NCBI GenBank assembly: GCA_027056485.1
Contig: JALUKQ010000031.1
Location: 30,950-94,949, forward strand
Origin: Campylobacteraceae bacterium
GTDB taxonomy: Bacteria > Campylobacterota > Campylobacteria > Campylobacterales > Sulfurovaceae
Length of the DNA: 64,000 nt
Direction: 5' to 3'
A program made the translations under genes and the position numbers. The notes under the pieces were generated by a model. The model saw only the letters and a program-made list of their open reading frames with translations. It searched no databases and had not been told where the DNA came from. Shown here one piece after another: positions 33,005-52,199 of the stretch; the stretch's first letter is position 1; every line of letters starts with the position of its first letter.

Positions 33005-34501
33005 ATGAAAGCAAAAATATATCTCTCAATGATGTTACTACCTATGATAGCAATGGCAAGTGAAACCTTCACAATAGGTGATAGAGTATGGCATGATACT
33101 AATGAGAACTGGGAACAAGATAGTGGTGAACAAGGTATGGCAGATGTAAAAGTTATGCTCTATACAGAAAGTGGGAAAAGAGTTAAAACAACCACAACAA
33201 ACAAAGAGGGTACATACCATTTCTATGGAATAAAAGAGGGAGACTACGTAGTAAAAGTAATAGCTCCTGAAGGTACTGAAATAGTAACAGACTCTAAACG
33301 TGAACTGTGGTTAGATAAAAATAGAAAAGATATAGACTTTGGACTCCATAATAAAAATCATAAAGGTGACTACTCTATAGGAGATAGAGTATGGAGCGAC
33401 ACAAATGAAAACTGGGAACAAGATAAAAATGAAAAAGGTATAGCAGGAGTAAGCATCAACCTCTTTAAAGCAAGTGGAGAAAAAGTATCTAGCACCAAAA
33501 CTAACCAAAATGGAAACTATAGCTTTGAAGAGTTAGCAGAGGGAGACTATGTAGTAAAAGTAGTAGTACCAAAAGATATGACAGCTATAACTGACACAAA
33601 ACTAGAAGTGTGGTTAGATAAAAGTAGAGTAGACAAAGACTTTGGACTTCTTAAAAAAAGTACACCTCCAAATGGAAAACCTATAACACTTGAGAAACTA
33701 AAAGAGATGATTGCAAATGGTGAAGATGTTACGAAAGTTAATACTTCTGAGATTACGGATATGAGTGGGCTTTTTGCTTTTAATGAAACATTTAATCAAG
33801 ATATAAGTGGATGGGATGTTTCTAAGGTTACTAATATGAGTGCTATGTTTAGAGGAGCAAAAGCCTTTAACCAACCAATAGGTAATTGGGATGTTTCTAA
33901 TGTTACAAATATGGGATTTATGTTTCAAGGAGCAATAGTATTTAATCAATCCATAGGTAAATGGAATGTTTCTAATGTTATTGCTATGAATGCTATGTTT
34001 AGTGAAACAAACACATTTAACCAACCCATAGGAAACTGGGATGTCTCTAAGGTTAGAGCAATGAACGCAATGTTTCGAGATGCAATTTTTTTTAATCAAC
34101 CCATAGGTAGCTGGAATGTATCTAATGTTACTGTTATGAACGCTATCTTTAGTGGTGCAAAAGTATTTAATCAGCCTATAGGTAACTGGGATGTCTCAAA
34201 GGTTGTCAATATGAGTTCCATGTTTAAAGAAGCAAAAGCATTCAATCAACCTCTTAATAACTGGAATGTCTCAAATGTTACAGATATGGAATTTATGTTT
34301 TCTGAAGCAGATACATTTAATCAGCCTCTCAATAACTGGGATGTTTCCAAGGTTGGTCTTATGACAAATATGTTTTTTTATATGGATAATTTCAATCAAG
34401 ATATAAGTATGTGGAATGTTGATAATGTTCGTAAATGGACTGGATTTTATGCTGGAACAGATATAGCCGATGAAAAAATACCTGAGAGATTTAGAAAATA
34501 A
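33005..34501 (+). CDS. Secreted protein with two SdrD_B-like repeats and BspA-like DUF285 repeats
   Basis: Signal peptide; GDRVW.DTNENWEQD...GDYVVKV...D.DFGL twice; repeated FNQPIGNWDVSKV.NM..MF units. Confidence 0.9.
   Translation: MKAKIYLSMMLLPMIAMASETFTIGDRVWHDTNENWEQDSGEQGMADVKVMLYTESGKRVKTTTTNKEGTYHFYGIKEGDYVVKVIAPEGTEIVTDSKRELWLDKNRKDIDFGLHNKNHKGDYSIGDRVWSDTNENWEQDKNEKGIAGVSINLFKASGEKVSSTKTNQNGNYSFEELAEGDYVVKVVVPKDMTAITDTKLEVWLDKSRVDKDFGLLKKSTPPNGKPITLEKLKEMIANGEDVTKVNTSEITDMSGLFAFNETFNQDISGWDVSKVTNMSAMFRGAKAFNQPIGNWDVSNVTNMGFMFQGAIVFNQSIGKWNVSNVIAMNAMFSETNTFNQPIGNWDVSKVRAMNAMFRDAIFFNQPIGSWNVSNVTVMNAIFSGAKVFNQPIGNWDVSKVVNMSSMFKEAKAFNQPLNNWNVSNVTDMEFMFSEADTFNQPLNNWDVSKVGLMTNMFFYMDNFNQDISMWNVDNVRKWTGFYAGTDIADEKIPERFRK
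33770..34440 (+). repeat. DUF285 tandem repeat array (about 75-bp units, nine copies)
   Basis: Recurring F.NFNQ(P/D)I..W(D/N)VS(K/N)V..M..MF unit. Confidence 0.85.
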
Positions 34502-34766: not shown

Positions 34767-35536
34767 ATGAAAAATAGAATCTTAAGAAAGATTATGATGT
34801 TAGCACTGTTGACTACAGTAGCATTTTCTACAGAACACTATGTAGATAACACCTAAGTACCTATCTAAAATCAATTTGAAATTAATTTTAGATAGGTACT
34901 TATGATAATGTTGGAGATAATGAAAATGATGATACCGTAATATTAACATCAGGTAATGCTGTTACAGGTTCAGTAGAACATAAAGAGATGAGATACTATA
35001 AAATTTCAGCTTCTAATGGAGATAGTGTTGAAACTATTCTAACTGGATTAAGTGCCGATGCAGACTTATATGTAAAAATTGGTGAGAAGCCAACAACTGA
35101 TACTTTTGATTGTAGCTCTGAGAAGGGTGAAACAAGTAATGAAAGTTGTTCTGTTACACTAAATAATGATGCTGATGTTTATATAGGTGTTTATGGATAT
35201 GAAAGCTCAAGTTATCAACTAGAATCGACTATTGTATTAACTTCTGGTAATGCTGTTTATAGCTCAGTAGCACAAGGAGAGATGAAATATTATAAAATAG
35301 CTGTACAAAATAACCAAACACTTACACCACTATTAAGTGAATTAAATGATGACTTAGATCTGTATGTAAAAATTGGAAGTAAACCAACACTAGATAATAA
35401 TGATTGTCACTCTGGAGATTATGGAACAAATGATGAAAGTTGTTCTCTAACTTTAAATAGTGGAGATGAAGATATCTATATAGGTGTTCATGGATACCAT
35501 GCGTCAAGTTATAAATTAGAAGCAACTATTGAATAA
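34767..35536 (+). pseudogene. Secreted protein with two PPC-like repeats, interrupted by palindromic insertion
   Basis: Signal peptide MKNRILRKIMMLALLTTVAFSTEHYVDNT then TAA. Removing 34854-34900 joins ...YVDNT to YDNVGDNENDD...EHKEMRYYKISASNG in frame through 35536. Confidence 0.85.
34854..34902. mobile_element. 49-bp palindromic insertion flanked by TA
   Basis: TAAGTACCTATCTAAAATCAATTT-G-AAATTAATTTTAGATAGGTACTTA, 24-nt arms with one mismatch, TA at both ends. Confidence 0.8.
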
Positions 35537-52091: not shown

Positions 52092-52199
52092 CGTAGGTTT
52101 GACCATGTCAAACGTTAAATTCCATTTTATATTGAATGGCAATTTCCGATGGTTATTGGTAATTGTCAGATTTTGACGTGTGACATGGTCACACCTACG
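52092..52199. mobile_element. 108-bp MITE/REP-like element with about 28-bp terminal inverted repeats
   Basis: CGTAGGTTTGACCATGTCAAACGTTAAA versus reverse complement of right end CGTAGGTGTGACCATGTCACACGTCAAA (25/28). Confidence 0.75.

Follow-up and report, generated by a model that had tools for sequence, protein, structure and literature searches.

A 49-bp palindrome made of IS630-type terminal repeats, probably a minimal non-autonomous element, in a PPC-domain protein gene of a Sulfurovaceae bacterium

RUP elements of Streptococcus pneumoniae measure 107 bp, occur in ~108 copies in intergenic regions or in IS elements, and have been proposed to be mobilised by IS630-Spn1 (PMC2229807). The size of prokaryotic MITEs is usually given as 70–300 bp (PMC3733652). 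RUP and IS630-Spn1 make up the nearest described system to the palindrome analyzed here, which resides in a stretch of 64,000 nucleotides (the window) from a Sulfurovaceae genome. Taking the type of element and its effect on the host gene jointly, the palindrome is very probably a minimal non-autonomous, MITE-like element of the IS630 type, which disrupts the gene of a secreted protein with two PPC domains. Nothing relevant on such elements was found in the literature on Sulfurovum, Sulfurimonas and Campylobacterota. The kind of element is known; new are its extreme reduction in size and a family apparently not yet described in this host genus.

The palindrome and the interrupted gene

The palindrome (TAAGTACCTATCTAAAATCAATTTGAAATTAATTTTAGATAGGTACTTA) measures 49 bp, both terminal TA included, and has no coding capacity. 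It had been recognized within a gene from the sequence alone, and is confirmed there as near-perfect rather than perfect, since the 24-nt arms, 96% complementary, feature a single mismatched pair and are separated by one central base (Table 1). In the window's list of inverted repeats, no other with >90% complementarity is as long. The predicted RNA fold has an energy of -24.5 kcal/mol (z = -5.4), and none of 200 shuffled sequences was equally stable. Another inverted repeat of the window, at 52092-52199 (CGTAGGTTTGACCATGTCAAACGTT ... GTGACATGGTCACACCTACG), has 31-nt arms, 87% complementary, spaced by 46 nt.

Table 1. Coordinates of the palindrome and of the gene parts at its sides
Feature	Position	Strand	Description
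5' gene fragment	34767..34856	+	29 codons, MKNRILRKIMMLALLTTVAFSTEHYVDNT, signal-peptide-like (n-, h- and c-regions); the TAA that follows comes from the insert; an SD-like aaggaa lies a few nt 5' of the ATG
Palindromic micro-element	34854..34902	.	pair of IS630-type terminal inverted repeats in head-to-head fusion; TA at both ends; 47-bp unit plus putatively duplicated TA
Left arm	34854..34877	+	TAAGTACCTATCTAAAATCAATTT; first 18 nt same as in right arm
Right arm	34879..34902	-	26 nt read inward, TAAGTACCTATCTAAAATTAATTTCA; 25/26 identity with the terminus of the IS630-family element in G168
3' gene part	34901..35536	+	211 codons, two PPC domains (PF04151); lacks a start of its own before ATG 34988

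The palindrome directly follows ACC, codon 29 of the ORF. As the sequence-only reading had stated, in silico removal leaving a single TA joins the two parts without stops (VDNT/YDNVGD...). The joined ORF has 240 codons. The frame alone would be restored by chance in ~1 of 3 cases; the split-gene reading draws its weight from the signal peptide encoded upstream, and from PPC-domain residues whose codons follow the palindrome and precede ATG 34988. This is the earliest ATG, GTG or TTG in the downstream frame, and lies within the first PPC domain. PPC homologues were matched in seven genomes of the genus, the window's own counted in. In the best matches, to which inspection of the N-termini was confined, the signal peptide leads straight into TLTSG...GxV...YYKI, a conserved strand of the first PPC domain. 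In the window copy this strand is coded between the palindrome and ATG 34988, hence the two ORFs are halves of one gene. The palindrome is absent from every PPC homologue examined, those of relatives included. A 669-aa PPC paralogue in the window's own genome (G000:C186) is intact, and there the signal peptide runs uninterrupted into LTSG...YYKI. PPC-domain repeat proteins are greatly expanded in genomes G166, G169 and G165 (17–27 matches per genome; e.g. G169:C118, G166:C89), and none was found in most other congeners. The upstream neighbour of the interrupted gene (33005-34501) encodes a protein of 498 aa, probably exposed at the surface, in which two SdrD_B-like domains accompany DUF285 (BspA-type) repeats.

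The frame open for 182 aa from ATG 34988 might be seen as an independent gene, the upstream fragment as a small separate peptide, and the palindrome as a regulatory sequence between the two. This is improbable, because the ATG falls inside the first PPC domain and is not preceded by a well-spaced SD, the LTSG...GSV strand conserved in homologues is coded upstream of it, and homologues hold the signal peptide in the same polypeptide. The reading frame, the signal peptide and the architecture of the homologues give good support to the disruption of a single gene, which had also been proposed at first. Most likely the locus is a pseudogene that has lost its function, since the insert adds a TAA right after the signal peptide and throws the remainder out of frame. 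For the host the consequence would be an ordinary gene disruption, an intact paralogue being present elsewhere. The best homologues are ~44–57% identical, and no allele or orthologue similar enough to reveal an empty site was found, so that we infer the insertion rather than see it directly. The sequence-only reading had called the event very recent and precisely datable. The former is plausible, both arms and the downstream frame being intact; the latter is not supported, as it would require an allele comparison or a clock.

IS630-type ends in related genomes

With one mismatch, the arm of the palindrome is found again in eight further genomes of the family, of which seven belong to the same genus. 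Matching ends are found in congeners G168, G171, G172, G170, G175 and G154, as in G057, which belongs to another genus of the family. In G172 an intact 1060-bp IS (locus L009, 670-1729) has both ends flanked by TA and related to the arm, and its transposase matches the IS630 model NF033545 (6e-42) and DDE_3 PF13358 (1e-35). In G168 (C43) the end TAAGTACCTATCCAAAATTAATTTCA, which has 25/26 identity with the right arm, adjoins a DDE_3 transposase gene. Since the arms recur as ends of IS630-family IS in congeners, the palindrome consists of two fused IS630-type terminal inverted repeats (TIRs), devoid of an interior; the early assignment to IS630/Tc1-mariner elements with a TA target is thus supported. 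A palindrome of the REP/RAYT type (tagged at one end by GTAG or CGTC, with no target duplication, and served by a Y1 transposase) was considered and rejected, as the ends TAAGTACC/GGTACTTA match the TIRs of a DDE IS. Six one-sided matches in unrelated phyla, obtained by scanning GTDB representatives for the exact TIR, were also discarded, their number being close to the chance expectation for 18 bases in 264 Gb.

TA is found at both ends of the window element and of its relatives, and a single TA restores the frame; duplication of the TA is putative, as only an empty site would separate it from the TIR sequence. The following route is the best supported. An IS630-family element would have lost its interior, leaving the left and right TIRs. 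An IS630 (Tc1/mariner-like) transposase acting in trans, now or earlier, would have inserted the resulting unit at a TA in codon 30, duplicating the target, and the TAA of the insert would end reading after the signal peptide, the rest of the gene being out of frame. Mobilisation in trans by an IS630 transposase is putative, and so is the identity of the enzyme.

IS630-type transposases were detected by family search in 8 of the 34 members of the genus. None was detected by family or protein search in the window's own genome, the assembly of which is 87% complete; the family search was positive in control genomes and in the 8 congeners, the protein search had no internal positive control. An IS630-type transposase was likewise not detected in G151. 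Both absences should be read in the light of the fact that IS copies often break draft assemblies. Searches for further copies of the sequence and for a transposase with such ends, advised by the sequence-only reading, gave neither in the own genome, where a second copy of the TIR variant of the window was not found. The strict palindrome pattern had no match besides the window copy in 176 family genomes. Since the variant is single-copy, the strict pattern occurs nowhere else, and the own assembly has no detected IS630 transposase, we only infer recent mobility in the window's genome.

The same data bear on phase variation, also suggested at the beginning, in which precise excision would restore the gene in some of the cells. 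The frame is indeed restored when one TA is left. Excision of the cut-and-paste Tc1/mariner type, however, commonly leaves footprints, and an IS630 transposase was not found in the genome; the switch is unsupported and highly improbable.

Micro-elements and MITEs across the genus

Inspection by eye revealed in G170 (L013) an element of 48 bp that shares the design and the central TTTCAAATT of the window copy; it is flanked by a tRNA-like sequence and a ubiX-like gene. A covariance model seeded with this element and the window copy was run on the 176 genomes of the family, and beyond its own seeds found TA-flanked palindromes of 41–81 bp in G151, G149, G164, G160 and G170. Elements of this design are multicopy in G151, present in the other four genomes, and the TIR variant of the window is single in its genome. 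Four near-identical copies of 54 bp lie at unrelated sites in G151 (C56, C57, C89, C91), hence elements as small as 54 bp probably transpose as such. The palindrome is a member of a class of micro-elements of the genus, not a solitary oddity. The relaxed palindrome pattern added only a 67-bp candidate at the start of a murE-like gene in G172, which was left aside as possibly due to chance.

Larger elements feature related ends. TA-flanked MITEs with related TIRs measure 274 bp in G151, G164 and G167 (L121, L132, L139), and 240 bp in G160 (L123). Their interiors, conserved and internally repetitive (CGATAAGAAAAAGG..., TTAGCTAAGGCTAG), are common to several species of the genus. MITEs of ~115 bp with related ends are found in G143 and G170. 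In the window's own genome (G000:C42) the 274-bp kind is represented by a truncated right end, near a long inverted repeat, GTAGGTCGGGTTGCCCTCATCCCGAC ... GTCGGGATGAGGGCAACCCGACCTAC (L125:1-640).

An IS630 element of ~1.1 kb, or a longer MITE, might have inserted first and then, through a deletion between short direct repeats close to its ends, shrunk in place to the fused TIRs, never being mobile at 49 bp. This overlaps the main explanation and differs from it in route only. The single copy in the own genome is consistent with such a history, as is a 47-bp element of G170 (L111), which by eye resembles the product of an ATATTGG direct-repeat deletion of the ~115-bp MITE in L017. However, the 48-bp G170 element sharing the central motif occupies an intergenic site unrelated to that of the window copy, and the 54-bp copies of G151 occupy four sites, so that elements this small appear to spread as such. 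L111 and the G151 copies together suggest that direct-repeat deletions may yield micro-forms, and that these may then spread. Shrinkage in place is accordingly the less likely route, though of some weight, and the window copy would rather have come by transposition.

The other micro-elements are intergenic or adjoin a gene, at its 3' end in L106 and L110 and at its start in L117. Only the window copy, among 16 examined, restores a long ORF extending to both sides of the site when removed in silico, and its location within a gene is unusual in the set. In L106 and L110, both in G151, the TAA of the element can act as stop codon, and a TAA stop is restored when an element inserts at the TA within it. 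The 47-bp element of L117 (1501-1547; G151:C32) lies at the extreme 5' end of a proB-like gene for an amino-acid kinase; its removal joins ATGAAAGCT to the gene frame, and the element may part the start codon from the gene.

The gene could also be functional if ribosomes bypassed the hairpin, taking off at ACC before the TAA, landing at ACT 47 nt downstream, and resuming at TAT to give an uninterrupted protein. A stop codon right at the insert, a strong hairpin, synonymous Thr codons at both edges and two intact frames are features that would suit bypassing. The element is however a dimer of transposon ends, its relatives are nearly all outside genes, with 0 of 15 other copies splitting a long ORF internally, and the landing ACT is dictated by the end of the TIR, which makes the Thr match a modest coincidence. 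Bypassing is therefore extremely improbable. If true, a bacterial gene would harbour a mobile 47-nt element silently, as a counterpart in bacteria to the mobile byps of mitochondria.

Comparison with known systems

The palindrome indicates that two IS630-type ends with almost no DNA between them (~47–54 bp in total) may suffice for transposition, below the range of 70–300 bp. One bacterial genus hosts a graded series made by an IS of ~1.06 kb, MITEs of 274, 240 and 115 bp, and palindromes of 41–81 bp, a setting that would allow a direct test of how small a substrate an IS630 transposase accepts.

Bypassing elements, as those of T4 gene 60 and the mobile mitochondrial byps, are in-gene hairpins of ~47–50 nt located after a stop, with synonymous codons at the edges. 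The window sequence resembles them in these traits; it differs in being explained by transposon ends. Correia/NEMIS (~107/155 bp) and Nezha elements are similarly TA-ended, bear TIRs, have little or no coding capacity and give stem-loop transcripts, but are far larger. The IS630-family IS of congeners (L009 of G172; G168 C43) share with the window element the TA flanks and the sequence of the termini, with 25/26 identity in the case of G168; in contrast to it, both encode a transposase, and L009 is 1.06 kb long. RUP elements are likewise non-coding and palindromic, carry the TIRs of an IS630-family IS, have a TA target, and have been proposed to be mobilised in trans. The window element differs from them as it measures 47 bp plus TA, has nothing between the TIRs, is single-copy as a variant, and lies within a host gene.
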